DNA of 64,000 nt from Gammaproteobacteria bacterium 42_54_T18 (GTDB lineage Bacteria; Pseudomonadota; Gammaproteobacteria; Pseudomonadales; Ketobacteraceae): assembly GCA_002163245.1 (NCBI GenBank), contig MAAL01000096.1:62001-126000 (forward strand), given 5' to 3'. The translations under genes and the position numbers were made by a program. This document shows positions 9,032-63,265 of the stretch, piece after piece (positions within the stretch are counted from its first letter, which is position 1; each line of letters opens with the position of its first letter). The notes beneath the pieces were generated by a model. The model saw nothing but the letters and a program-made list of their open reading frames with translations, did no database searches and was not told where the DNA came from.

Positions 9032-9850
9032 CTAAGAGCGGTCCCCCTTAGGGTTATCTTTTATCTGCTTCGATCGCCAATCTTTAGGATCTAACTGACG
9101 AAGTATCTCTAGCTGTTCTTCTGTTGGTGCAGGGGTAGTTGGAAGGTCCGCTTCAGCATGTATTTCAAACCCAGTATTTTCCAACACTTGATCCAAGCTA
9201 ATTCCTGGATGCAAACTCACAACACGTAACATGTTCTGAGGGCCATTCCAATCCATCACACATAGATCAGTTATCACCAAACGAATATCAATGTCATCAA
9301 ACGTATAACCTTTTGGTAAACGCTCAGGGTTATAACCAATAGAACACACCATATCGCACTCACCATCCATAAACACTCGTGTGTTATGAGAAGGAACAAA
9401 GAACGAATTCGCATGGCAAATAGAGTTACCAGGAAAACCACGCGCCCCTAGCATTTGAACTTTAGGCTGATCATAAGTACCACCCAAAGCAGAAATGTTA
9501 GTTTGACCGTATTTATCTATCTGTGTTGGCCCAACCATCGCATGACGTTTACCACTCCACACGTTATCAAAGATACGAGAAAACCCCATCCAAGTTTCCT
9601 GCTTCTGTCCTTCATGTGAGCTTCGACCGCTAACAGGGTTTGGCTCAGACAATACAAATGCTTCTGAGTCCGTCATCATTAAATCGGGGTTAAAACTTTT
9701 CATTGCTAAGCTTGCTGCCAAACGGGGAATCATGCCAATACCCGTTGCCAAAACTTCACCATCATTTCTAAATGCTTCTGCGCCTGCAACAATCATTAAT
9801 TCTGCTAGGCTATAGTCTTTTGCTGAAACGGTATCTTGTGTAGCACTCAT
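9032..9850 (-). CDS. ipdB: IpdB-like beta subunit of ring C hydrolase (CoA-transferase fold)
   Basis: The beta-type class I CoA-transferase subunit, 272 residues from the start chosen here. IpdAB does not transfer CoA but opens ring C of COCHEA-CoA in the HIP pathway (ScdL1L2 in Comamonas). Motifs include TGIGMIPRLAASLA, MMTDSEAFVL, SNSICHANSFF-like GNSICHANSFF and the C-terminal VVSLHPGISLDQV. A GTG at 9892 would add 14 residues, but the ATG at 9850 has AGAGGA at normal distance and gives the family N terminus, so I prefer it. It lies 64 bp after ipdA. Confidence 0.87.
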   Translation of the reverse strand: MSATQDTVSAKDYSLAELMIVAGAEAFRNDGEVLATGIGMIPRLAASLAMKSFNPDLMMTDSEAFVLSEPNPVSGRSSHEGQKQETWMGFSRIFDNVWSGKRHAMVGPTQIDKYGQTNISALGGTYDQPKVQMLGARGFPGNSICHANSFFVPSHNTRVFMDGECDMVCSIGYNPERLPKGYTFDDIDIRLVITDLCVMDWNGPQNMLRVVSLHPGISLDQVLENTGFEIHAEADLPTTPAPTEEQLEILRQLDPKDWRSKQIKDNPKGDRS

Positions 9851-9914
9851 TTTTTCAATTCCTCTTACGCTGCCCTTTCTTACTAGAGTCACGACAAACG
9901 TCTAAAAAGCTAGA

Positions 9915-10790
9915 TTAATAAACAGGTAATGGTGTTTTTTGGATCGCATCCAAACCGCCAACACTCTGCTGAAAATCTTCTTCTGTTTTACCCGTAATAT
10001 ATTTATCGGCGTAAGTGGCAAAACCACCGGCCTTAGCTGACGCGTTATATTCTTTAAAATGAGCCACATCAAAACCGTAAGCTGGTGAACAAGAGCTAGG
10101 GTATGCACCACCAGCAATTTCAACCACGGTTGTTGTCTGGCTACGTTCCCAATAAACCGAACGTGCTTCGTCACCTTGCGCAAAGAATTCGGTATCCACT
10201 AACTCTTCACAACTAACAATAGAGATATCCGCAGCACGAGCAAACCAATCATCCATATAATGATCAGGCCCTGTGATCTGGCAAACTCCGCGAGAATCTG
10301 CACGATTAACATGCACAAGTGATACATCCAATTTAAGCGCAGGCATCGCAACCCACTCTTTGTCGTCATAAGGGCTATCAATCACTTTCAAATCAGGACT
10401 ATGTTTAATCACATCAGTACCTAATCCCAACGCCGTGGGTATATAAGGAATATTCCACGCCGCCGCACGAAGGCCTAACAACATCATACCTTCATCTATT
10501 TCCATCACTTCAATAGATCCGGTCTGACGCGCTTGGCGAAAGTAAGGCTCTAGAGGAATAAAATCTAACGATACAAAAGCAAAAATAACTTTCTTTACTT
10601 TTCCTGCAGCGCACAACATACCAACATCGGCACCACCGTAGGCAACTACGGTTAAATCCTTTACATCCGAACGAAGTAGCTCACGAATCAATGCCATGGG
10701 CTTACGACGAGGCCCCCAACCACCAATACCAATTGTCATACCGTCTTTGATTTGAGCGACGGCTTCTTGTGCGGTTTGCACTTTATTCAT
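9915..10790 (-). CDS. ipdA: IpdA-like alpha subunit of ring C hydrolase (CoA-transferase fold)
   Basis: A 291-residue class I CoA-transferase alpha subunit, close to the 292 residues of mycobacterial IpdA. Motifs are IKDGMTIGIGGWGPRRKP (about 14-31), VVAYGGADVGMLC, and MVSLVHVNRAD-type VSLVHVNRADSRG. I place the start at the ATG at 10790 because the upstream in-frame GTG (10805) is part of the GGAGAAG ribosome-binding sequence. It is the first gene of the minus-strand ring C/D operon and is divergent from the FadD3-like ligase. With ipdB it should form the hydrolase that opens the last carbocycle. Confidence 0.88.
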   Translation of the reverse strand: MNKVQTAQEAVAQIKDGMTIGIGGWGPRRKPMALIRELLRSDVKDLTVVAYGGADVGMLCAAGKVKKVIFAFVSLDFIPLEPYFRQARQTGSIEVMEIDEGMMLLGLRAAAWNIPYIPTALGLGTDVIKHSPDLKVIDSPYDDKEWVAMPALKLDVSLVHVNRADSRGVCQITGPDHYMDDWFARAADISIVSCEELVDTEFFAQGDEARSVYWERSQTTTVVEIAGGAYPSSCSPAYGFDVAHFKEYNASAKAGGFATYADKYITGKTEEDFQQSVGGLDAIQKTPLPVY

Positions 10791-11006
10791 AAGAGACTTC
10801 TCCACCTGTTCAATTGTTTACACAACACGAGCGTTATTCCATACCTTAAAACGTAGTCTGAAAACTCGGCCTTTAAAGCGATGATTTATTATGCGTGCTT
10901 TGCCCACAACACCCATCGTCGAAATGGACTAGGACACAAGATGGTGATTTAGATACCTTATTTAGCATAGGATCGGCCTTTCGCCTGAAGGCAATCAACC
11001 CGTTAA
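10791..11006. promoter_or_regulatory. Divergent promoter region between the ring C/D and ring A/B operons
   Basis: This 216-bp gap separates ipdA (minus) from the ligase gene (plus) and must hold promoters for both operons. The only dyad I can point to is GCCTT-7 nt-AAGGC, just upstream of the ligase start. I do not find a KstR2-like palindrome. Promoter boxes are not assigned. Confidence 0.5.
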
Positions 11007-12611
11007 ATGAGTGGAACCACTATGCAAGACCAGCCCAACACGGCGTCAACTATCCCCCAACTGATTGAAAGCGCAGCCAAATTATATGGCGACCAAAACT
11101 TCTTAGAAGAAGGCGTAACACGTATTAGCTTTAGCGACTTTGCCGAACAGGCAAAACAAGTCGCCGCAGCCCTTATAGCAAAAGGCATCCAGCGGGGGGA
11201 CTGTATTGGTGTATGGGCTCCCAATATCAGTGAATGGGTTATTGCTGCCCTTGGCGCACAATGCGCTGGCGCAACCTTAGTAACGCTAAATACCCGCTAC
11301 AAAGGCAACGAAGCCGCTTATATCTTACGCGCAAGCCACAGCAAGCTGTTGTTTTCTATAGGGAATTTCTTAGAAACCGACTATCCATCCATGCTTGATA
11401 ACGAAGATCTACCCGAACTTCGAGATATCGTGGTGTTTAGAGAAGCAGATGATGCCCCTGCTCTCAGCAAACTTGCACGCTCCTCATGGCAGGACTTTTT
11501 AGAGCAAGCTTCAGCAACAGCGCCGTCCGAAGTAAACGCTCGAATCTCAACCATCACGGGAGATGACGTCTCTGACATCCTCTTTACCTCCGGCACCACG
11601 GGAAACCCCAAGGGTGTCATGACCTGCCACGAACAAAACCTTCGGGCTTTTAGCCACTTTAGTAACATTGTTGGCCTAACCCCCGGCGACCGTTATCTCG
11701 TCATCAATCCCTTCTTTCATAGCTTCGGTTATAAAGCGGGCATTCTCGCCTGCTTACTCACCGGCACAACCCTACTACCTCACGCCGTATTTGATACCAC
11801 CGAAATCCTACAACGTATCTCAACCGACAAAGTCTCCGTATTACCAGGACCCCCAACACTATTTCAATCCTTACTAGCCCACCCTGAGCTAGACCAATAC
11901 GACATTTCCACGCTAAAGCGCGCCACCACTGGCGCAGCTGTTATTCCTGTGGAAATGATCGAACAAATGAAATCACGCCTAGGATTTGACGTAGTTATTA
12001 CCGCCTACGGCCTTACAGAAAGCTGCGGCCTTGTCACGGCATGTCGCGCCGATGACAGCTCAGAAACCATCGCCACCACATCAGGGCGCGCTATTCCCGA
12101 CATCGAATTACGCTGCGTTGATAGTAACAACCAACCCGTTGCCCCAGGAGAAGCCGGTGAAATTGTCTTCCGAGGTTTTAACGTGATGAAAGGCTATTTC
12201 GAAAACGAGGCCGCCACCGAAGCAGCCATAGATGACGAAGGCTGGTTGCATACCGAAGACATTGGCATCTTAGATGAACAAGGCAACCTCAAAATCACCG
12301 ACCGCCTAAAAGATATGTTTATCACGGGAGGCTTCAACTGCTATCCGGCAGAAATTGAAAAAATCATGGCCGCCAATGATGCGATCACTATGAGTGCCGT
12401 GATTGGAATCCCTTGTGAGCGCCAAGGCGAAATTGCCATGGCATTTGTTGTACTTAAACCCGGCGTAACACTAACGGATTCAGAACTGGTTAGCTGGTGT
12501 CGAAACAATATGGCCAACTACAAAGTGCCTAGAAAAATTCGTTTTGTTGATGCGTTACCCCTTAATGCATCAGGAAAAGTGCTCAAAGCAGAATTACGAA
12601 AACTTGTTTAG
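11007..12611 (+). CDS. fadD3: Acyl-CoA synthetase, HIP-CoA ligase (FadD3-like)
   Basis: A 534-residue AMP-forming ligase. It has the P-loop-like SGTTGNPKGV (about 195-204), the hinge GWLHTEDIG, the ITGGFNCYPAEIE segment and catalytic Lys524 in NASGKVLK. It resembles FadD3, which activates the C/D-ring propionate (HIP) with CoA after ring A/B removal, and it opens the plus-strand operon facing ipdAB. An internal ATG at 11022 preceded by GTGGAACC is an equally plausible start. It might accept a different steroid acid, but the neighbourhood favours HIP. Confidence 0.85.
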   Translation: MSGTTMQDQPNTASTIPQLIESAAKLYGDQNFLEEGVTRISFSDFAEQAKQVAAALIAKGIQRGDCIGVWAPNISEWVIAALGAQCAGATLVTLNTRYKGNEAAYILRASHSKLLFSIGNFLETDYPSMLDNEDLPELRDIVVFREADDAPALSKLARSSWQDFLEQASATAPSEVNARISTITGDDVSDILFTSGTTGNPKGVMTCHEQNLRAFSHFSNIVGLTPGDRYLVINPFFHSFGYKAGILACLLTGTTLLPHAVFDTTEILQRISTDKVSVLPGPPTLFQSLLAHPELDQYDISTLKRATTGAAVIPVEMIEQMKSRLGFDVVITAYGLTESCGLVTACRADDSSETIATTSGRAIPDIELRCVDSNNQPVAPGEAGEIVFRGFNVMKGYFENEAATEAAIDDEGWLHTEDIGILDEQGNLKITDRLKDMFITGGFNCYPAEIEKIMAANDAITMSAVIGIPCERQGEIAMAFVVLKPGVTLTDSELVSWCRNNMANYKVPRKIRFVDALPLNASGKVLKAELRKLV

Positions 12612-44346: not shown

Positions 44347-45969
44347 TTATAAATCTTCTAAGATGATTTTCTCGATGTTTCTCTCTGCCAATGCAGAAAT
44401 AGTTAACGCTGGGTTCACCGCCCCAGTACTACCGTTGACCATTGCGCCATCCATAACATATAAGCCATCATAGCCATGAACGCGTCCATAAGCATCGGTT
44501 GCCTTGCCAAGGACTACGCCACCTAGCGGGTGCGCCGTAAACGATGCATTAACATCGGGAATCAGCCCTGGAAGCCCTGGCACACTCCAACTTGCAGCAG
44601 CAATTTTATTATTCATTTCCCGCGCAGATTCTACGACATCATTGTTGCCATTTTCAGGCCATAGCAATGTACAGGAATCCGTTTGCTCATTATATTCGAA
44701 TCGCGCACGGTTCTTCATATCAAAGCCCATACCTAAACTACCAATGACGCCCACATTAACGGGAACATGTAGCGCATACCAATTTTCCAACGTTACTGGC
44801 ACATCAAGGGAGGCATCATGTATTTTACTGGCAGAAGGTGATGCCTGGGTAACTCCTAACGATGGAGCCATGGTTCGAACAACTGCAGCATCGCCATTAG
44901 TACCCCAACCTTCACCAACATGCTCATTCAGATCAGGCAAATCACCTCGCTCTCGAGCCCGCAATAGCAATTCAGTCGTTCCGATAGAACCTGCCGCCAT
45001 AAATAGTTTCCCACAGGACAATGTGTACTCGTCAATAACCTCTCCCATGGGATCAATTTGTTCAACCTGCACGAGATAATTACCGCTGGAGTCACGGCTA
45101 ACGCCCTTGACCTGAGTACCAGAATAAACACTGGTATAACCACTATCTTCTGCATATTTTAAATAGTTTTGAGTTAAATCAAACTTGGCTCCATTGGCGT
45201 TACCATGATTACTCTCACCAACAGTCGCTGATCGACGATTCCCTCGCCACCAACGATATTCATCACGAACAACATCCCAATTCCAAATGCCATCAATTGA
45301 CTCTGGTGTATAACCTGCTGAACGAGCGTGACTATCCCAAACTCGAGAATGCCCCCAGGCCGACTTCCAATATAAATCACTCGGTAACGGGCTTACACGT
45401 AACATCTCTCTTACTCGTGGGTAAAACGTGTTGTTCATTTCATCAAAATCGACATTATCTTGAAAAATTTCTTCAAAGTACTCACGCTCAGGCTGAATCA
45501 GTACGCCGGTAAATACTTTTGAACCACCACCCACGCAGGCACCACGCCAAACGGATATATGATCGTAATCAGTGACATCCAAAATCCCACCAAACTTATC
45601 AAAATTGAACGGTATCCCAGTGACCTGCGTTATATCCGTTCGATGCCAATACGCTCTGCCGTCAGGGGCAAAATCATTGGAATGAATATCTCTTCGGGGA
45701 TCCTGAGGCCAACGACAACCACGTTCCAAAACCGTGGTTTCTATACCTGCTTGTGCCAAGCGGTAGGCTGAGATTGCACCGCCGAAACCGGATCCAATCA
45801 CCAATGCTGGCGTATAGGTAGGCGGCTTAGCAACCGGCTCAAAGAGCTCGGGAACCTTCTCTCGGTATTTCTCCTCAGGTGTATGAGCTGATGCTGTATT
45901 ACTCACTACTGGCAACCCAGTGGCAGCCGCAGCGACGCCTGTCGATTTAAGAAAAGATCTTCGTTTCAT
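44347..45969 (-). CDS. Tat-exported class I cholesterol oxidase-like GMC oxidoreductase
   Basis: A 540-residue FAD enzyme that matches Streptomyces-type cholesterol oxidase along its length. The signal has RRSFLK (3-8) for the Tat path with an AxA near SASA/H (about 29). FAD binding is VIGSGFGGA (57-65). Active-site His480 (HPLGGV) and Asn519 (VNPALT) align with ChoA His447 and Asn485; the ChoA Glu361 equivalent is not obvious, with LDVPVTLEN in that area. It would oxidise and isomerise 3-beta-hydroxysterols at or outside the cell envelope. It is monocistronic and separated from the steroid operons by 24 kb. Confidence 0.88.
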   Translation of the reverse strand: MKRRSFLKSTGVAAAATGLPVVSNTASAHTPEEKYREKVPELFEPVAKPPTYTPALVIGSGFGGAISAYRLAQAGIETTVLERGCRWPQDPRRDIHSNDFAPDGRAYWHRTDITQVTGIPFNFDKFGGILDVTDYDHISVWRGACVGGGSKVFTGVLIQPEREYFEEIFQDNVDFDEMNNTFYPRVREMLRVSPLPSDLYWKSAWGHSRVWDSHARSAGYTPESIDGIWNWDVVRDEYRWWRGNRRSATVGESNHGNANGAKFDLTQNYLKYAEDSGYTSVYSGTQVKGVSRDSSGNYLVQVEQIDPMGEVIDEYTLSCGKLFMAAGSIGTTELLLRARERGDLPDLNEHVGEGWGTNGDAAVVRTMAPSLGVTQASPSASKIHDASLDVPVTLENWYALHVPVNVGVIGSLGMGFDMKNRARFEYNEQTDSCTLLWPENGNNDVVESAREMNNKIAAASWSVPGLPGLIPDVNASFTAHPLGGVVLGKATDAYGRVHGYDGLYVMDGAMVNGSTGAVNPALTISALAERNIEKIILEDL

Positions 45970-46262
45970 GATGACATAACCCTTTAAATTTTAGGTGCAC
46001 TTAACCGTTCAAACACTCTCCATGTTTGAATTGGTAGTTAATGCGTGCAATTATTTTCTACATACAATCCGTTTATAGATGTATAAAAAACGCGCAGTAT
46101 ATCCAAGCTCTCGTATTAAGCACGCTTAGATTGGTTAATTAATGTAGTCATATCATGACGGTTAAACTGTACAATGAAGTAATAACAAAAAGCAGGGGCT
46201 ATACCACGAGAAAGGCTGTCACCCCCCTCCCCCTCAACATTTCCATATTAAGGATAAATAAA

Positions 46263-54827: not shown

Positions 54828-56606
54828 GTGACATCTTCAAAGCATCACCAATCTCCTACCGCTAACATAGAGCAAGAATTGCTTCGTATGCTTGCGCTAC
54901 AAGGGTGGATGGGGACTATTCCTACCGTTCTACTGCTCTCCGTCATTGCTAGCTTTGCATCAGAATATTTCCACCCAATTTACTGGGCAACCTGGTTAAT
55001 TGTCGCCAGTACCTTTCTCTTTAGCCGTGCTGCGCTACTTATTCAACTACCCAAATTGACACAATATTCTGAACGATTTCGCATAAACATTGTTGTTTGT
55101 GGCAGCATTATTAGTGGCAGCCTCCATGCTTTCTCATTTATATTTTTCTTTCCTGAGTTTAGCGACTATCAACGTGCAATACACAGCATGATTATCATGG
55201 GTATCGGCGCAGTAACAATCATGACAACAGCTGGATTCTTGCCTATATCTCTCGCCTATATCATACCCGCTGGGCTTTCTTCATCCTCTATGTGGGTCAT
55301 TACCACCTTACAAGACAATGGGGAACCAATTGGTTACATCGTTGCCGTCATGCTATGTGTAAGTAATATAACGATGTTAATACTATCAAAAGAAAGCTTC
55401 GGCCTTATCAGGGGTTTCTTTTCAATACGTAATCAACAAGAAGAGCTAAACCATCAACTACAAGAGGCATTAAAAACAGCGGAAAGTGCTAGTCGAGCTA
55501 AAACCCGCTTTCTAGCATCCGCAAGCCACGACTTACGCCAACCTATTCACGCATTATCACTTTTCAGTGGTGCTCTTTCTCGGCGAACCCTTGATAAAGA
55601 AAGTCGAGAAATAGCAGAGCATATGGACACGGCACTACAGTCATTAGTGTCTCACTTAGATTCACTATTAGACATATCTAAACTTGACGCGGGCATTGTA
55701 CAAGCCAATGTTACGCCATTTAACTTACGCTTGATGGGTGAGCGTTTGCAGAGTGAATTTATCCCTTCTGCTAGCGAAAAAAATCTAAAGTTATGGTTTG
55801 ACTGTGTTGACGATGCTTATGTTGAATCAGATGAATTTTTACTTGACCGAATCCTTCGCAACCTAATCGCCAATGCAATTAAATACACACATTCTGGTAA
55901 TGTGGAGTTAAGTATAGAAAATTTAGAACACACCCATCGGATTCGAATATCCGATACAGGTCAAGGTATTCCCCAAAGTGAGCAGACAAGGATATTTGAA
56001 GAATTCTATCAACTAGACAACCCAGAAAGAGACAACACACAAGGCTTAGGGTTAGGTCTAGCGATTGTTAACCGCTTAGTAAGCCTTCTAGATATTGACA
56101 TACATTTAGAATCCAGTATCTCCACCGGCACCTGTTTTACACTTACCCTGGCCAAGTCCCACAAGATCCCAACACCGAACAACATCCTACCCCCAAGCCA
56201 ATTTTCATGGGAAAATATCTCAGCCCTTGTTATCGATGACGATCACGAAGTTGGCCTTGGTATGAAAGTGTTGTTAGAAGGGTTGGGGTGTCACGTACTA
56301 CTAGCGGACGGTACAGAATCCGCTATTCATATGGTAAGATCCACACGCCCCGATATTATACTTGCTGATTTCAGGTTACGGGGAAAGGACAATGGAATAT
56401 TGTCCATTCACTCAATTCATAAACTGTACCCTGCATTACCTGCAATTTTAATCAGTGGTGACACAGCTCCCGAGCGACTTCTCGAAGCCAAGCAAGCAAA
56501 TATTCAAATGTTGCATAAACCGGTATTAGTTGACGAATTGGAACAGGCAATAGCGACGTTATTTAAACACAAAGACATTCATCAAGAAGCTTGCCTTGAG
56601 GTTTAG
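54828..56606 (+). CDS. Hybrid sensor histidine kinase/response regulator
   Basis: A 592-residue hybrid kinase. Six membrane helices (about 30-190) form the sensor, followed by a coiled linker, the dimerisation box SASHDLRQPIHAL with phosphorylated His234, the ATPase domain with NAIKYTHSG, DTGQGIP and GLGLGLAIV, and a C-terminal receiver with VIDDDHEVG (about 467) and phospho-acceptor Asp514 (LADFRL). The start is a GTG at 54828 with AAGGA upstream. It is 21 bp upstream of the giant GMC fusion, so the two may be co-transcribed and the kinase may sense its substrate or product. Confidence 0.88.
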   Translation: MTSSKHHQSPTANIEQELLRMLALQGWMGTIPTVLLLSVIASFASEYFHPIYWATWLIVASTFLFSRAALLIQLPKLTQYSERFRINIVVCGSIISGSLHAFSFIFFFPEFSDYQRAIHSMIIMGIGAVTIMTTAGFLPISLAYIIPAGLSSSSMWVITTLQDNGEPIGYIVAVMLCVSNITMLILSKESFGLIRGFFSIRNQQEELNHQLQEALKTAESASRAKTRFLASASHDLRQPIHALSLFSGALSRRTLDKESREIAEHMDTALQSLVSHLDSLLDISKLDAGIVQANVTPFNLRLMGERLQSEFIPSASEKNLKLWFDCVDDAYVESDEFLLDRILRNLIANAIKYTHSGNVELSIENLEHTHRIRISDTGQGIPQSEQTRIFEEFYQLDNPERDNTQGLGLGLAIVNRLVSLLDIDIHLESSISTGTCFTLTLAKSHKIPTPNNILPPSQFSWENISALVIDDDHEVGLGMKVLLEGLGCHVLLADGTESAIHMVRSTRPDIILADFRLRGKDNGILSIHSIHKLYPALPAILISGDTAPERLLEAKQANIQMLHKPVLVDELEQAIATLFKHKDIHQEACLEV

Positions 56607-56627: not shown

Positions 56628-59600
56628 ATGTCCGACCGATCCACGACCTGGATATCGCAAGGCTTTGAGGCCTTTATTGCACAACATAAAACGCACCAAA
56701 TCACTGAATTTGACTACGACATCATTATTATTGGTAGTGGTTATGGTGGGGCAATCGCTGCATCTGAACTAGCTGGCTTAACAAAGCACGATAAACCTTT
56801 ACGTATTTGCGTGTTAGAGCGTGGTAACGAATATTTGTCTGGAATGTTTCCATCTGACGCATCAGATCTACCAAAACATATCCGTGTATCTGGTTCCAGA
56901 AAATTCCAGCATCAACAAACTGGACTATTTGATTTACACACCAGCGCCAGCTTAAACACGCTTGTAGCCAATGGATTAGGTGGAGGCTCTCTTATAAATG
57001 CCGGAGTTATGCTAGAAGCAAAACCTTCAGTATTTAACCATCGCTGGCCAAAAGAGTTACAGTACACTCATCCAAAAAGCCTTTTTTCTGGTTACTATGA
57101 ATCTACAAAACAGTTACTGGAAGCAAAGGATAAGCACGGTGACAATACAATTGAGCGCCACCAATATCACCAACAAGAGGCATTAAAAAAACACGTAGCG
57201 CTTAAGCAACTTGCAGTACAAGATTCGAAAAATAGTACGCCATTGCATTTCTCTTCGACACCGCTAACCATAGCGCAAACAGAAAAAATTAATAATGCGG
57301 GAGTTAAACTTCAGGCTTGTAATCTATGCGGGGACTGCGCCACGGGTTGTAATCAGGGTGCCAAAAACTCTTTGGATACCAACTTACTCGTCAAAGCCTT
57401 CAAACAAGGTGTTGAGATTTATACCGGCGCTACCGTTCGTAGTATCCAACCAATTAACGATACAGCGGATGGCTGGTGCATTAATGCTGTACATACAAAA
57501 AAACACCTACAAAAACGCGAAGGCTCTCCAACAAAAATTACCACAAAAAAAATTATCCTTGCAGCAGGAACTCTTGGGTCCACCGAAATACTTATGCGTT
57601 CGAAGTCAGAATCACTAATTTTTTCTGATCAACTTGGCAAAAGTTTTTCTGCAAATGGGGATATGTTGAGCGCCATATTCGACCAAAAAAACGTGGTTAA
57701 CGCGGTTGCCAACGAGAATAAAGAACCTAACGACAGATACGTTGGCCCTACCATTACGAGCATGATAGACCTAAGAGACAAGCCCCCCCACCTATTAATA
57801 CAAGAAGTTACTGTACCAAGTTCTTTGCAGAAAATATTCGAAGATGTAACCACAACGTTAAATAGCGTATCTAAATTGACAACAATGGATACGGAAATAC
57901 ACACCACAGGCCATCTACACAGTGATCCTCAATCGGTAGACAGCAATGTCACCAAACACACGGCTGCTTACGTACTGATGGGGGATGATGGAGCGCGAGG
58001 TTCACTACAATGGGATAAAGATAGCACGAATGATGCTATCCAAGTACATTGGCCATCCCTCTCAAATCACCGCCTTTTTCATGAGCAAATCAATACACTA
58101 AAAGATTTGTTAACAACATCTAATGTCGGGGGAACGCTACTTACCAATCCGATGTGGAGGCTAACATCAGCACCTCAAAGAAACAAAGGCACATTACTAA
58201 CAGTTCACCCCCTTGGCGGCTGCGTAATGGCAGACGATGCATCGCTGGGGGTCGTAAATCACATTGGCCAAGTATTTAACTCCTCAAATAATGCAACCGT
58301 TTACGAAGGCTTAGTGGTACTTGATGGCGCTATTATTCCCTCTGCTATAGGCGCCAACCCTGCCTTAACCATTGCAGCCGTATCCTTGCGTGCCATACAA
58401 CAACTCATAAAGATCTGGGAGTTAACAACACCTTCACCTCAAATTACACCAACATCTCTTCCTATCGACCGACCTAAATATTCTCATACAAATACTGACA
58501 AAACCTCCACGAGCAAACCTACGACCCCAACTCGGATAGAAATCACGGAGCGTCTAACAGGACAAGTAACTCTCACGGATGCCGATAATCACCCCCTAGA
58601 CTGCACCGTAGACCTTACACTACGTTTTAATGATTTTTCTATTCAGAATTTTGTGCGTAATAAACAACGCAGAATTACTGTGAAAAAAAACCCACCGAAT
58701 CTCTCTTCTAACAATCCATCTAACAATGCATCAATAAGCCAACTTCGAATATTTGATCGTAAAACGTGGTATCAACTAACTCAGAAAGGAGTAGACGAAA
58801 GTGAACTTGATAAAAATGCACTGCTAATCAGTCCGGTATCTGGAAGCTTGGACATATTAACAAGAGAAGCATCAACGCCCTCCATTCGTGTTGCCAGAGC
58901 CCTTTGGCCCTGGTTACGCAATAGGGGTCTGAGAGAGTTATGGCAACATATATTTCAAAGGCTATTCCGAAAAAGACCTTCGGTATTAAAAACCGATAAA
59001 AGCTTTCTATCACGGTATATTGAAACCATAAATAACATAAAATCAGTCACCTCGCGCGCAGGTGAAATTCGTAAATTTGACTATCAACTACAACTTCAAC
59101 AACCAGAATTAGGTTGGCCAAAACAACTCAGTGGCTTTGATCACGCTGCTTCAGAAATAAAAATCAGTGGCCTAAAGCGCATTACCTACAAATCACATGC
59201 CAATCCATTACGACAACTTCAAGATATTCACCTTAAAACATTTCCAGGATTACAACCAGCTCGTCATCAACCAAACCAATCCCCTGCATTCTTACGCTTT
59301 GACTCACGTTTTCTAGTACAAAATAAAGAACCGCTATTAAAAATAGTGCAACAGCAGAATCAACCATCGGCGTTGATTGATATGGCTGCATTATCTCATT
59401 TTTTTCTACGCGTTATACTAAACATACATAAACTAAGTTTTCATTCACAAAATTCGTCACCAACCCAGACGGCTAAGCGTTTGCCTGACTTTATTCAAGG
59501 TATTCCCACCCCAACGATAATTGAACTTAAAATTGACAGTATTTCGGAATCCGAAACATTCAAAGCGCCAACAACCATTCGCCTTACACACTATTCAAGA

Positions 59601-62384
59601 AAAGCATGGTTAACCGAGAAACACGATAATTTCCCACCGGTTGTCATGATCCATGGCCATAGTGCAAGTGGAACAACATATACTCATCATTCTTTAAAAC
59701 CCAGTTTAGCCCAGTATTTTTGGGATAGAGGAAGAGACGTCTGGATTGTAGATTTACGTACTAGCAGCGGCCTAGCCAGCGCATTACACCCCTGGTCATT
59801 TGAGGACATTGCATTTTCTGACATACCCGTTGCCATCGACCACATATGCCATGTTTCTCAATGTGAAAAAGTGGATGTTATTGCTCATTGCATGGGTTCT
59901 TCAATGTTAAGTATGGCAATTCTAGCCACGCCAAACATTGAAGATAAATATTACCAAGAAAGAGCGGCATTACCGAATCGCATCAATAAAGCGGTACTAT
60001 CACAGGTTGGCCCTAGAGTCGTATTTAGTGCAGACAACATGTTCAAAGCATATATACTCGACTATTTTCGACAAGCAATGCCATCAATAACATACGACGC
60101 CCAACGTTCGAGTTCGGCGTCCTATACAGGAAATGTATTCGATCGTATTCTTTCAGTACTACCATATCCAGAAAAAGAGCGACGATTAGAAAACCCAGCT
60201 CGCCCCTGGGTCAGAAGAAGTCATACCGGTAGTCGGCGTAGACTGGACGGCATTTATGGTCAAACATTTAAGCTTTCAAATATTTCCAAAAAGACACTAA
60301 AACATATCGATGATTTCTTTGGCCCCATAAATTTAAAAACCATTTCACGCGTCACTCAATTTGCATTCCATGAACAGGTCACAAACAAACATGGTGAAAA
60401 TGATTTCGTAACCAATGAGAATTTAAAGAAATATTGGAAATTTCCAACATTAAGTATTCATGGTAGCGATAACGGAGTTGCAGATATAGCAACGCTCAAC
60501 CGAATGCAACAAACCATGGCTGCCGCTGGTTGTGATTACCATACAGAAATATTACAAGGTTTTGGGCATCAGGACTCACTGATAGGAAAGAATTCTAAAA
60601 TCAACTTCCATAAAATATCTAATTTTCTAGATACAGAGCACCCAGAAAAATGTGACGCTGCAGAGCACCCTCATCGTTTTCATTGCGAAACACCTTATTC
60701 AGGTCCTGTAGTAGGTACGCTTTCAACATCTAACAAAATCGCTGTTAGCTTAGGAATAAACCCTCAAAGAAAGCACCCTGATTTCATTGTTTTCCTCGCG
60801 GTTAATATAAACAAACACAAAATAGAGTTGGCTAATGTCGATATGCCATTGTTCCATAGCCTATCCATGACGTTTGCATCACCCATACAACAAAGCTGGA
60901 TAAAAACTGAATTAGCCGTACCTGCTCAATTTGAGAAGGCTGATGGCATATTGGTACTACTTCTAGATGATCAATGCATGAATTGGGATGAAATATCATG
61001 CCCGTCATACTTGCCCAATAATTTACTGGACTTCCTTGATACAAATACCGAAACCACACCTGAAAGCCAAAAAATACGCCAATACTTACAATTGAACGTA
61101 TTAAGCGATAAGTTTACCCAATCAATAGAAAACACCCTTAAACAACCCAGAAACGTTCTTGAGTCCGCTATTATTCAATGGCCTAAAAAAGCGAACTCTC
61201 AACAAAAAGAACAAAAAAAGGAACAACAAACACAATTTGCCCTCGCTGCCTGCCAATACCCAGCAGGCCTGCTCGATAAGACGCTCGCCTATGCATCCTA
61301 TAATCGACTGGCAGAACATTTGGACAAAAAGACAACCTCCACACCAAAAAATCTAATGCCTCAATTTATAATACTTATGGGTGATCAAGTTTATACCGAT
61401 GCCAGCGCAGGTTTATTTGATCCAACCGATAGTCATGACCGATACACTCGCCCCTACCATAAGTGGCTATCTCAACATGCTGTTAAATCCGTTTTTCGGC
61501 GCCTCCCAAGTTATATGATGTTAGATGACCATGAAATTCTGGATAATTGGGATCGATCCGAATTAACACTTGGCAATGCCAAACTATTTGAATATGGAAA
61601 ACGAGCCTACCTGAATTTCCAACGAAACTTACATCAAACACCGCAACCGCTGAACTCAGATACCAGCAACACCCCACTTTGGTATACGTTTGAACAGCAG
61701 GGTTTTGATTTTTTTATGCTAGATACTCGAACAGAACGCGAGGGACGTAGCATTAAAAATAGTGACAGCACCCACAATATAAAACCACTTATGGAGGCGA
61801 AGTTAATTTCTGACAATCAATTCCAAGCACTTTTACTTTGGCTGGAAAGAACCAAATCTGATAATGAAAAGCCTCGTTTTATCGTATCTGCATCCATGTT
61901 ATTACCCCGCAGGTTACACAGTACAACACCCTACAGCGCTATTCATTCTGATGCTTGGGATGGTTACCCGAGAACGCTGGATCAGCTACTCGAACATATT
62001 GCATTTAATGATGTTAAAAACCTGATATTTCTATCGGGAGATGAGCATGTATCCAACGTAACAACGATTGATTTAACCGCTAAATCAATTGTTCTGGAAA
62101 AAACTACCAGTACACGTATCTATTCCATTCACAGCTCGGCGCTTTATTCACCGTACCCTTTTGCAAATTCAAACCCAGATGATTTTGCGAGCAAAGAGAC
62201 CTTTAACGTTGGGAAAAACCCCTTTCAATGTAAGGTATCCTCAACATTCTATCCAGGCGATGGCTTTGCTCTCCTAAGTACATACCAAATCGATGGTAAT
62301 TGGCACATCAGCAGCGACTTTAACCGAGCCGAAGACACCTTTGAATCAAGCGAAAAAGCGACCTCTTGGACGATAAAACTATAG
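56628..62384 (+). CDS. Giant GMC oxidoreductase-alpha/beta hydrolase-PhoD phosphatase fusion
   Basis: A 1918-residue protein. Residues about 28-600 are a GMC/cholesterol-oxidase-like flavoenzyme: IIGSGYGGA (35-43), a CNLCGDCATGC cysteine cluster (Cys231, 234, 237, 241), active His527 (HPLGGC) and Asn577 (ANPALT). A Thr/Pro-rich linker and a region to about 990 follow. Residues about 1000-1330 are an alpha/beta hydrolase with Cys1088 where Ser is usual (AHCMGS), Asp1281 and His1314. Residues about 1530-1918 are a PhoD-like metallophosphatase: GDQVYTD (Asp1586), DDHE (1633-1636) and GDEHVSN (His1807). No signal peptide is seen. It could oxidise a sterol and cleave an ester and phosphate in one chain; substrate unknown. 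Confidence 0.88.
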   Translation: MSDRSTTWISQGFEAFIAQHKTHQITEFDYDIIIIGSGYGGAIAASELAGLTKHDKPLRICVLERGNEYLSGMFPSDASDLPKHIRVSGSRKFQHQQTGLFDLHTSASLNTLVANGLGGGSLINAGVMLEAKPSVFNHRWPKELQYTHPKSLFSGYYESTKQLLEAKDKHGDNTIERHQYHQQEALKKHVALKQLAVQDSKNSTPLHFSSTPLTIAQTEKINNAGVKLQACNLCGDCATGCNQGAKNSLDTNLLVKAFKQGVEIYTGATVRSIQPINDTADGWCINAVHTKKHLQKREGSPTKITTKKIILAAGTLGSTEILMRSKSESLIFSDQLGKSFSANGDMLSAIFDQKNVVNAVANENKEPNDRYVGPTITSMIDLRDKPPHLLIQEVTVPSSLQKIFEDVTTTLNSVSKLTTMDTEIHTTGHLHSDPQSVDSNVTKHTAAYVLMGDDGARGSLQWDKDSTNDAIQVHWPSLSNHRLFHEQINTLKDLLTTSNVGGTLLTNPMWRLTSAPQRNKGTLLTVHPLGGCVMADDASLGVVNHIGQVFNSSNNATVYEGLVVLDGAIIPSAIGANPALTIAAVSLRAIQQLIKIWELTTPSPQITPTSLPIDRPKYSHTNTDKTSTSKPTTPTRIEITERLTGQVTLTDADNHPLDCTVDLTLRFNDFSIQNFVRNKQRRITVKKNPPNLSSNNPSNNASISQLRIFDRKTWYQLTQKGVDESELDKNALLISPVSGSLDILTREASTPSIRVARALWPWLRNRGLRELWQHIFQRLFRKRPSVLKTDKSFLSRYIETINNIKSVTSRAGEIRKFDYQLQLQQPELGWPKQLSGFDHAASEIKISGLKRITYKSHANPLRQLQDIHLKTFPGLQPARHQPNQSPAFLRFDSRFLVQNKEPLLKIVQQQNQPSALIDMAALSHFFLRVILNIHKLSFHSQNSSPTQTAKRLPDFIQGIPTPTIIELKIDSISESETFKAPTTIRLTHYSRKAWLTEKHDNFPPVVMIHGHSASGTTYTHHSLKPSLAQYFWDRGRDVWIVDLRTSSGLASALHPWSFEDIAFSDIPVAIDHICHVSQCEKVDVIAHCMGSSMLSMAILATPNIEDKYYQERAALPNRINKAVLSQVGPRVVFSADNMFKAYILDYFRQAMPSITYDAQRSSSASYTGNVFDRILSVLPYPEKERRLENPARPWVRRSHTGSRRRLDGIYGQTFKLSNISKKTLKHIDDFFGPINLKTISRVTQFAFHEQVTNKHGENDFVTNENLKKYWKFPTLSIHGSDNGVADIATLNRMQQTMAAAGCDYHTEILQGFGHQDSLIGKNSKINFHKISNFLDTEHPEKCDAAEHPHRFHCETPYSGPVVGTLSTSNKIAVSLGINPQRKHPDFIVFLAVNINKHKIELANVDMPLFHSLSMTFASPIQQSWIKTELAVPAQFEKADGILVLLLDDQCMNWDEISCPSYLPNNLLDFLDTNTETTPESQKIRQYLQLNVLSDKFTQSIENTLKQPRNVLESAIIQWPKKANSQQKEQKKEQQTQFALAACQYPAGLLDKTLAYASYNRLAEHLDKKTTSTPKNLMPQFIILMGDQVYTDASAGLFDPTDSHDRYTRPYHKWLSQHAVKSVFRRLPSYMMLDDHEILDNWDRSELTLGNAKLFEYGKRAYLNFQRNLHQTPQPLNSDTSNTPLWYTFEQQGFDFFMLDTRTEREGRSIKNSDSTHNIKPLMEAKLISDNQFQALLLWLERTKSDNEKPRFIVSASMLLPRRLHSTTPYSAIHSDAWDGYPRTLDQLLEHIAFNDVKNLIFLSGDEHVSNVTTIDLTAKSIVLEKTTSTRIYSIHSSALYSPYPFANSNPDDFASKETFNVGKNPFQCKVSSTFYPGDGFALLSTYQIDGNWHISSDFNRAEDTFESSEKATSWTIKL

Positions 62385-62431: not shown

Positions 62432-63031
62432 CTAGTCAACCAATTCAATTTCTAGACTTTCGAGCAAACTAACAGCCTCAAAACGGCAAAATTTTGCCCC
62501 TTTAATACGGTTGTCGTACACGTCAATGCTGTAATTTGTTGATTCAGCGAAATTGGCTGATGTTAAATTTGTCTTTCCAAACACACTATGTAAGAAGTCT
62601 GTTCCAGAGAAATCAGCTTCATTAAAGTTTCCTTCCCTAAAATCCACATCGTGAACCTTGCAGTCCTCCAAAACAAGCTCCTCCATCTCTAGGCCATAGA
62701 ATGAAGAATCGTTAAGAATAGATTTATGAAATTTTACCTGGGCAAAGGTAGTTAGGTTTGGCCAGGTTGCTTTTGTCCAATCCACACCAATAACTTTACA
62801 CTCGTCAAAAACCACATCTGAAAATTTGCTGTAAGAAAGCTTAACAACACTCAGGTTACACTTAACAAAGTGACAATCGATAAATTTACACTTATCAAAT
62901 AATACATCACTAAAATCACACTCTGTAAAAGTACAATCTTCAAATTCTTTATCGGTAATGGTACTTCCTGAAACATCAATATTATTAAACCGTTTAGACA
63001 AATACTCGTCTTCGTTATCAAAATTTTCCAT
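62432..63031 (-). CDS. Pentapeptide-repeat protein
   Basis: A 199-residue right-handed beta-helix protein with A(D/N)LXX-type repeats: FEDCTFTECDFSDVLFDKC, KFIDCHFVKCNLS, NFNEADFSGTDF and TNLTSANF. Such proteins can mimic DNA (Qnr-, McbG-like gyrase protection), but no specific role can be assigned. The ATG at 63031 is preferred; a GTG four codons upstream has its Shine-Dalgarno sequence too close. It is convergent with the giant GMC fusion. Confidence 0.82.
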   Translation of the reverse strand: MENFDNEDEYLSKRFNNIDVSGSTITDKEFEDCTFTECDFSDVLFDKCKFIDCHFVKCNLSVVKLSYSKFSDVVFDECKVIGVDWTKATWPNLTTFAQVKFHKSILNDSSFYGLEMEELVLEDCKVHDVDFREGNFNEADFSGTDFLHSVFGKTNLTSANFAESTNYSIDVYDNRIKGAKFCRFEAVSLLESLEIELVD

Positions 63032-63265
63032 TACTTTAACCACTGCCTTATTAATGTAGATATCGTAAAATATTTTGTATAGGATTTTTGTACGTGCAAT
63101 TATAATACGTTTCTGTTTTACACGTCTTCTACCATATTACATTCCATCCTATTTATTAAAAATAGTCATATCTCCATATATTTCATAAACTTACTTAGCT
63201 AGATATATACACTCCTAGCCATTGTCAAATACATTGTTTCTTTTCTAGCAACAGTTTATCCCCGA

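Follow-up and report, generated by a model that had tools for sequence, protein, structure and literature searches.

A fused GMC flavoenzyme, alpha/beta hydrolase and PhoD gene in a gammaproteobacterium and its relatives, tentatively read as a trifunctional lipid-processing enzyme

The window considered in the present work is the whole 64,000-nucleotide stretch of contig MAAL01000096.1 (contig C39 of a genome of 6.66 Mb) from Gammaproteobacteria bacterium 42_54_T18. Towards its end, at positions 56628-62384 (+ strand, like all the parts and residues located below), it harbors a gene coding for a 1918-residue protein in which a cholesterol-oxidase-like GMC flavoenzyme (residues 25-600; 56700-58427), an acid-lipase-like alpha/beta hydrolase (residues 986-1335; 59583-60632) and a PhoD-type metallophosphoesterase (residues 1531-1918; 61218-62381) are joined. 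The open reading frame analysis revealed one uninterrupted, ATG-started frame without internal stops, as claimed in a preliminary description of this DNA, and full-length fused homologues agree with it. Between the first two parts lies a middle region of about 345 residues (641-985; 58548-59582), and between the last two a linking region (residues 1336-1530; 60633-61217), for which a low-confidence model predicts, in part, beta strands. A hybrid histidine kinase gene recognized with Pfam (54828-56606, +) lies directly upstream, with a gap of 21 bp. The literature searched, which covered open-license PMC papers, yielded no description of such a three-part fusion.

Taking the Pfam gathering scores as domain cut-offs, the protein contains GMC_oxred_N (residues 111-325, E 5e-15, 56.3 bits vs. 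a cut-off of 23), GMC_oxred_C (residues 456-585, E 2e-10, 41.6 bits vs. 24.6), Abhydrolase_6 (residues 1005-1126, E 5e-7, above its gathering score) and PhoD (residues 1558-1841, E 2e-24, 86.5 bits vs. 27); Abhydrolase_1 falls slightly under its cut-off (24.6 vs. 25.8 bits). The three catalytic folds of the preliminary description are all, in this respect, present in one frame. The Pfam scan gave no family above cut-off for the middle region, which has a counterpart in most fused proteins and none in the two-part GMC-hydrolase proteins described below.

Loci and genomes of the comparison set are labeled L and G, respectively, followed by a number. The whole fusion is present in three of the four other genomes of the genus (76, 62 and 54% identity); no full match was found in the fourth (G004), which is 87% complete. 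The possibility, raised in the preliminary description, that the parts are separate genes in close relatives is thus ruled out within the genus, and that of an assembly artefact or a chance frame is ruled out by the fused homologues in several genera and by complete Ensifer plasmid records, so that the frame is genuine; real or apparent splits occur farther off (L043, L044 and G506). In the comparison with the congener G001, the ratio of nonsynonymous to synonymous substitution rates (dN/dS) is 0.12 for the GMC part, 0.20 for the middle region, 0.12 for the hydrolase and 0.13 for PhoD, and it spans 0.12-0.26 over all the regions of the gene, with dS about 0.9-1.4. Since dN/dS is low at a dS near 1, all the parts of the protein are held by selection.

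Fused homologues were also retrieved from Janthinobacterium, Massilia, Undibacterium, several Burkholderiales and betaproteobacterial metagenome-assembled genomes (MAGs), as well as from Ensifer megaplasmids (about 35% identity, with seven plasmid records covering at least 80% of the query); full-length proteins with the same three-part order are therefore found in Burkholderiales and Ensifer, too. The whole-genome surveys (E <= 1e-40, at most two candidates scored per genome) give counts that are lower bounds. According to them, fused genes occur in at least 4 of 369 genomes of the class sample (the window's own, G237, G253, and G132 with a broken PhoD frame), at least 8 of 349 of the order of Janthinobacterium (G460, G1342, G1474, G1307, G1164, G1187, G1250, and G1403, split over contigs) and at least 2 of 398 of the phylum sample (the window's own and G506, with PhoD in a separate frame); in the class of G506, this was the only one among 337 genomes. 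In the sample of relatives, 7 of 96 genomes carry the fusion, including the window's own, G044 (split over contigs) and G057 (broken N-terminal frame). Six Burkholderiales fused frames were confirmed from their loci.

The alignment used hereafter comprises 23 fused and 22 two-part proteins, plus eight GMC-only relatives for the cysteine motif. Loci with a broken frame (L069 and L106), genes split over contigs (G044 and G1403), duplicates (L039, equal to L097/L010, and L045, equal to L153), short copies (L008-L012, L071-L073, L081 and L082) and the Ensifer plasmid matches H1-H3 and H5 are outside the 23 fused proteins. The protein of G057 (L103) was kept; it lacks the N-terminal frame, so the GMC cysteine counts are over 22 fused proteins, and it is outside the GMC+hydrolase tree. 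In this tree, 22 fused proteins and L112 fall on one side of a branch with a support of 95/95, which suggests that the fusion probably arose once. L112 is the locus of G506, whose GMC-hydrolase and PhoD parts are in two neighboring frames, either by fission or by a frameshift; according to the tree, it belongs to the fused clade in split form.

The assignment of the first part to the GMC oxidoreductases is based on the two Pfam domains and on a His/Asn pair. His527 (58206-58208) and Asn577 (58356-58358) align with His447 and Asn485 of cholesterol oxidase and are invariant in the 23 fused and in all 22 two-part proteins; the equivalence is one of alignment position, with residue names from the Protein Data Bank entry titles of the Streptomyces enzyme. 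Cholesterol oxidase gives a profile match of E 8e-37 and is the best fold match of the AlphaFold model of residues 1-985 (Z 29.2, 1b8s), followed by choline oxidase (Z 26.3); many GMC enzymes match at Z near 25, including fructose dehydrogenase (Z 25.4). The score against the NCBIfam cholesterol oxidase family NF058674 (152.8 bits vs. a cut-off of 850) places the protein outside that family.

The same part harbors the motif Cys231-x2-Cys234-x2-Cys237-x3-Cys241 (57318-57350). Cys231, Cys237 and Cys241 are conserved in all 22 fused proteins with the region intact, in all 22 two-part proteins and in all eight GMC-only relatives (52/52 together), and Cys234 in 20/22, 22/22 and 8/8, respectively. 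The arrangement Cx2Cx2Cx3C is the pattern usual for 4Fe-4S clusters. The three invariant cysteines, taken alone, have the spacing Cx5Cx3C in each of the 52 proteins, which is exactly that of Cys212, Cys218 and Cys222, the ligands given in PMC6719666 for the 3Fe-4S cluster of the Burkholderia cepacia flavin adenine dinucleotide (FAD) glucose dehydrogenase (BcGDH), a member of the GMC family. The motif is absent from the three Streptomyces cholesterol oxidase chains with alignments available. Conservation and spacing point to a probable iron-sulfur (Fe-S) site, and the GMC part is probably a dehydrogenase with an external acceptor, not an H2O2-forming oxidase; because of the Fe-S-type motif, the name "oxidase" used in the preliminary description appears doubtful. 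Compared to the Streptomyces cholesterol oxidase (1b4v/1b8s), the fold (Z 29) and the counterparts of His447 and Asn485 are kept, but the protein differs in the four-cysteine motif, in the fusion to two hydrolases and in that no export signal was seen. BcGDH shares the spacing, but the fused protein has a fourth cysteine and the sequence similarity is weak (6a2u, E 9e-5); the Gluconobacter fructose dehydrogenase, which bears the same Fe-S cluster as BcGDH, shares the GMC fold. The window also contains a separate, distant GMC-type frame (44350-45990, - strand), which matches the fused protein in the C-terminal region only.

In the hydrolase part, the nucleophile position is occupied by Cys1088 (HCxG; 59889-59891), conserved in 23/23 fused and 22/22 two-part proteins, and His1314 (HxD; 60567-60569) and Asp1316 are kept in 45/45. 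The triad Cys-Asp-His initially proposed is not the conserved pattern, given that Asp1281 is Asp in only 6 of the 23 fused and 2 of the 22 two-part proteins. The next residue, Asn1282 (60471-60473), stands at the position where the motif G-x-x-D places the catalytic acid in most alpha/beta hydrolases, and it is Asn in 22/23 fused and 22/22 two-part proteins (44/45), with Ser in L144. Because of this conservation at the acid position, the triad is most likely Cys1088-His1314-Asn1282, resembling the Cys-His-Asn triad of papain. The nearest proteins by sequence profile are the gastric (E 1e-10) and lysosomal (E 7e-8) acid lipases, which are also among the best fold matches (Z 19.3-20.2), level with 1vkh, a putative serine hydrolase (Z 19.7). 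These lipases (1hlg, 1k8q and 6v7n) align at the HLD motif, but their family has a Ser-Asp-His triad, whereas here the nucleophile is Cys (45/45) and the acid Asn (44/45), with His kept (45/45); this part, therefore, does not have the family triad. A Cys nucleophile in an alpha/beta hydrolase is known from the class III polyhydroxyalkanoate (PHA) synthase PhaC, whose triad is Cys-Asp-His, and a weak NCBIfam match (E 1e-4) links it to the hydrolase part. The fold match is weaker, however (9knk, Z 17.7 vs. about 20), and membership in the PHA synthases is ruled out by the PHA_synth_III_C score (21.2 bits vs. a cut-off of 365.3) and by the Asn at the acid position.

The third part belongs to the PhoD family on the basis of its Pfam score and of its Fe/Ca ligand set, the equivalence of the latter with the Bacillus subtilis ligands being drawn from motif and position; the NCBIfam PhoD score is low (41.2 vs. 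1000 bits). Cys1542 (61251-61253), a probable Fe3+ ligand, Asp1586 and Tyr1589 (GDQxY; 61383-61394), probable metal ligands, and Asp1805 and His1807 (GDxH; 62040-62048) are each present in 23/23 proteins, and in the motif DDHExxDN (residues 1633-1640; 61524-61547) DDHE is kept in 23/23 and Asp1639 and Asn1640 in 20/23 each. Hence, among the active-site residues listed in the preliminary description, His527, Asn577, Cys1088, His1314, Asp1586, 1633-1636 and His1807 are found in 23/23 fused proteins, and Asp1281 in 6/23; the four-cysteine motif, Cys1542, Tyr1589 and the middle region are absent from that description. Asn1640 was matched to Asn-272 of B. subtilis PhoD by counting along the alignment, with a signal peptide that we take to be 56 residues long. 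The three fused proteins in which Asn1640 is replaced by Asp fit the family, in which, according to PMC4223295, the Asn-272 equivalent is sometimes Asp. The same paper describes a Cys-ligand subfamily that includes B. subtilis PhoD, with Cys-180 as an Fe ligand, and the Streptomyces chromofuscus phospholipase D, and presents the enzymes of the family as extracytoplasmic. Through the match of the model to B. subtilis PhoD (2yeq, Z 20.5), Cys1542 is probably the counterpart of Cys-180, and the PhoD part a member of this subfamily. It shares with those enzymes the fold and the probable Cys-subtype ligand set, but it is C-terminal in a fusion and no export signal was seen: the N-terminus of the window protein showed no conspicuous hydrophobic signal in a simple Kyte-Doolittle hydropathy look, with no predictor, and the protein may be cytosolic.

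The PhoD part is 81% identical to that of the congener G002 (L096), vs. 57% for the GMC part and 63% for the hydrolase, and the PhoD and GMC+hydrolase trees disagree on the sister congener of the window protein; this suggests a recombination of the 3' part of the fused gene within the genus.

The two-part proteins (frames of about 1150-1370 residues, annotated as "alpha/beta fold hydrolase" or "GMC oxidoreductase") share the GMC and hydrolase signatures of the fused proteins in 22/22 cases. They differ in lacking a fused PhoD, but in 15 of the 22 loci (14/21 excluding L112) a phosphoesterase-like gene lies within two genes of the two-part gene. These neighbors can be divided into calcineurin-like groups A (L101, L113, L122 and L150), B (L102, L110 and L111), C (L117 and L121) and D (L114), and into PhoD or PhoD-like proteins (L043, L044, L108, L151 and L112); the groups show no mutual matches at E 1e-3. 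The neighbor in L117 is annotated as a metallophosphoesterase despite a sub-threshold score, and that in L151 was assigned through L108 and through a match (E 7e-6) to the fused PhoD. When the neighbors of the GMC-only relatives were compared with the phosphoesterase groups already found, a group C gene was seen directly adjoining two of the eight (L124 and L154), and likewise the GMC-only gene of L121. The phosphoesterase-like neighbors of the two-part genes support a shared pathway, in line with the multi-step processor of the preliminary description.

In ten genomes, picked because a partner is present and used for the genome-wide count only, PF00149 is listed at least 3-9 times per genome; the count is too low, as four of the eight known calcineurin-like partners are unlisted (G053, G463, G573 and G1231). 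Even at a doubled count, we estimate that, with several thousand genes per genome, chance would place a PF00149 gene among four neighbors in no more than one or two percent of the loci, a figure of our own obtained without permutation and with related loci that are not independent.

In the GMC+hydrolase tree, groups A and B occupy one branch each and the other partner loci are scattered. In the PhoD tree, obtained by a quick search with no bootstrap, the separate PhoDs that adjoin the two-part gene in the Nitrosomonas MAGs L043 and L044 group with stand-alone PhoDs (Shimodaira-Hasegawa-like approximate likelihood ratio test, SH-aLRT, 96), and L108 and L151 are far apart on long branches. Since the partner groups are scattered, the Nitrosomonas PhoDs lie outside the fused clade and L108 and L151 are apart, several separate recruitments of a phosphoesterase are likely. 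The hydropathy look likewise gave no conspicuous hydrophobic N-terminal signal for the neighbors of groups A, B and D or for the PhoD ones; those of group C have strongly hydrophobic stretches farther along. Three group A loci harbor, between the enzyme and the metallophosphoesterase, a gene for a RoxA-like di-heme cytochrome c (L113, 10209-12137; L122, 11767-13632; L150, 5567-7723), which is suggestive of a possible electron acceptor for the GMC part.

Two further two-part genes have neighborhoods of their own. That of L070 (2288-13276), on a Rhizobium leguminosarum plasmid, lies near a class III PHA synthase phaC/phaE, an iron-containing alcohol dehydrogenase and a coenzyme A transferase; after that of L116 (5504-14299), on the Leptospira borgpetersenii plasmid lbp2, come another GMC frame, a methyltransferase and a gene annotated as sphingomyelin phosphodiesterase.

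As for the kinase, an N-terminal region of about 200 residues without a Pfam match is followed by HisKA, HATPase_c and a receiver, with a core of the NahK/TorS-like kind. Among the best 25 NCBIfam matches of each protein, only kinase-core matches were present and none covered the sensor; a CqsS/PhcS-like quorum sensor, which was considered, found no support there. Out of 25 fused loci, 22 are testable for linkage, as the contig ends at L040, L041 and L106. A core-related kinase adjoins 19 of the 22, at no more than 72 bp except for L103 (713 bp, with a shorter frame) and divergently in L146; sensor-region similarity is seen in 10 of the 19 linked kinases. A LuxR-type response regulator occurs within about 2 kb at 14/22 testable loci and is absent in the window's genus. 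The exceptions are the three Ensifer loci, with an adenylate/guanylate-cyclase-like gene divergently adjacent; in L067 and L068 (Ensifer) and in L112, a gene of about 1370 residues with adenylate/guanylate-cyclase and AAA_16 domains stands in the place of the kinase. Such a kinase lies within about 1.1 kb in only 3 of the 21 two-part loci with flanks (L110, L111 and L120) and, being rare there, it is a mark of the fused clade and not of all the relatives. The kinase, often together with the LuxR-type regulator, probably controls the fused gene; for the role of controller proposed in the preliminary description, the linkage is plain and the control itself is what we infer from it. Just downstream of the fusion lies a pentapeptide-repeat gene (62432-63043, - strand), and the other three fusion-bearing congeners have a homologue of it in the vicinity of their fusion.

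On the whole, we tentatively favor, at somewhat less than even confidence, the idea that the fused protein is a cytosolic trifunctional enzyme, probably lipid-processing, acting on a substrate with, or passing through, alcohol, acyl and phosphoester groups. The GMC part would carry out an FAD-dependent oxidation of an alcohol, with a surface Fe-S cluster relaying the electrons to an external carrier. The hydrolase would form a thiol acyl-enzyme through Cys1088-His1314-Asn1282, leading to the hydrolysis of an ester, thioester or lactone or to an acyl transfer, and the PhoD part, which keeps all its Fe3+/Ca2+ ligand positions and shows no visible export signal, would remove or cleave a phosphoester. 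The adjacent hybrid kinase, often with a LuxR-type response regulator, would act as the controller in most fused cases.

Several points weigh against this idea. The confidence of the AlphaFold models is low (mean pLDDT, the predicted local distance difference test, 60.5 for residues 1-985 and 58.1 for the other model), too low for checking the triad geometry in space; the cysteine loop 232-249 is below 50, too poor for the geometry of an Fe-S site, and the Fe-S-bearing fructose dehydrogenase fits no better (Z 25.4) than several other GMC enzymes. Two fused proteins lack Cys234, and Ser replaces Asn1282 in one of the 45 proteins. Regarding the neighbors, group C is under the PF00149 cut-off of 21.5 bits (L117, 19.5; L124, 17.4), that of L121 has no Pfam match and joins the group by its similarity to L117 alone (E 3e-61), and that of L108 is under the PhoD cut-off (22.5 vs. 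27 bits). No phosphoesterase was found among the neighbors examined in seven of the 22 two-part loci (L070, L107, L109, L115, L116, L119 and L120). The RoxA-like proteins look membrane-anchored in the hydropathy look and do not evidently face the same side as the enzyme. Finally, in a third Nitrosomonas MAG (L048), a PhoD of the L043/L044 kind (9602-11137) is not preceded by any GMC-hydrolase gene over the 9.6 kb upstream, the contig ending 0.5 kb downstream, which implies that the Nitrosomonas-type PhoD is not always linked.

This last case and the undercount of PF00149 make the trifunctional reading slightly weaker and, in turn, slightly strengthen the explanation that independent activities were fused for co-expression, without a common substrate. 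Each of the domains is common on its own, the fusion probably had a single origin, and in L048 the PhoD occurs with neither of the other parts in reach. We nevertheless regard this explanation as unlikely, in that, without a shared pathway, it is hard to see why the two-part enzyme should be accompanied by different phosphoesterase-like genes in separate lineages. If a common substrate exists, a glycerophospholipid would account for all three activities on one molecule, with PhoD as a phospholipase D/phosphodiesterase, the hydrolase deacylating and the GMC part oxidizing the released choline- or glycerol-type alcohol. The hydrolase is lipase-like, choline oxidase is the second GMC fold match after cholesterol oxidase, and the PhoD family includes, according to PMC4223295, the S. 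chromofuscus phospholipase D; however, the GMC sequence and fold are nearer to cholesterol oxidase than to choline oxidase, and such a dismantling seems rather unlikely.

The resemblance to cholesterol oxidase and that of the hydrolase to the lysosomal acid lipase/cholesteryl ester hydrolase recall the sterol conjugates of the preliminary description, in which sterol esters would be cleaved by the hydrolase and sterol phosphates by PhoD, with the 3-hydroxyl oxidized by the GMC part. KshA, which marks steroid ring degradation, was used as the single marker of sterol use: KshA_C (PF19298) is above cut-off (best E 1e-67 or below) in all 4 genomes of the window's genus that bear the fusion, a genus which may well degrade steroids, but in none of the 12 other fusion-bearing genomes (G506 with its split gene among them), although two of these 12 gave sub-threshold matches. 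Since KshA is above cut-off only in the window's genus and the fused family does not follow the capacity for steroid degradation, sterols are unlikely as a general substrate; the distance from the NCBIfam cholesterol oxidase family and the absence of the cysteine motif from the three Streptomyces chains also speak against a sterol-conjugate processor, which we judge improbable, even if the kinship with cholesterol oxidase and acid lipases stands. The surroundings of the fused gene would fit a trio that produces or degrades a small signal molecule, lipid or nucleotide, for the adjacent hybrid kinase or, in Ensifer, for the adjacent cyclase gene: the kinase and the LuxR-type regulator recur at most testable fused loci, and a cyclase-like gene is divergently adjacent in Ensifer and L112. 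Nevertheless, two-component neighbors are ordinary regulators, such kinases are found near only three of the 21 two-part loci, the similarity of the sensor region is limited to 10/19 and the kinase has a NahK/TorS-like core with a sensor outside any family assignment; a role in signal metabolism is, in our opinion, quite improbable.

Extending the trifunctional reading, one might think of an undescribed intracellular lipid pathway in which a GMC dehydrogenase of the Fe-S type and an acyl enzyme with a Cys-His-Asn triad on an acid-lipase fold were supplied several times with a phosphoesterase, be it the fused PhoD, one of other PhoD-like lineages or one of the four calcineurin-like groups, and one phosphorylated lipid is channeled through dephosphorylation, oxidation and acyl transfer under the kinase in most fused cases; in this complete form, the proposal is doubtful, yet worth considering. 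That one two-part enzyme is accompanied by phosphoesterase-like genes of different families provides genomic evidence, spanning Gammaproteobacteria, Burkholderiales and Alphaproteobacteria, for alcohol oxidation, acyl chemistry and phosphoester cleavage in one pathway. A cytosolic PhoD beside lipase-like and alcohol-oxidizing domains would favor intracellular, perhaps membrane-surface, lipid work over phosphate scavenging. The residue patterns put in question the naming of such proteins as oxidases or serine-type hydrolases and suggest that a lipase fold carries a Cys-His-Asn triad like that of papain, a combination that would be of interest to enzymologists. In this context, the fused gene represents a concrete, testable entry to an uncharacterized pathway.

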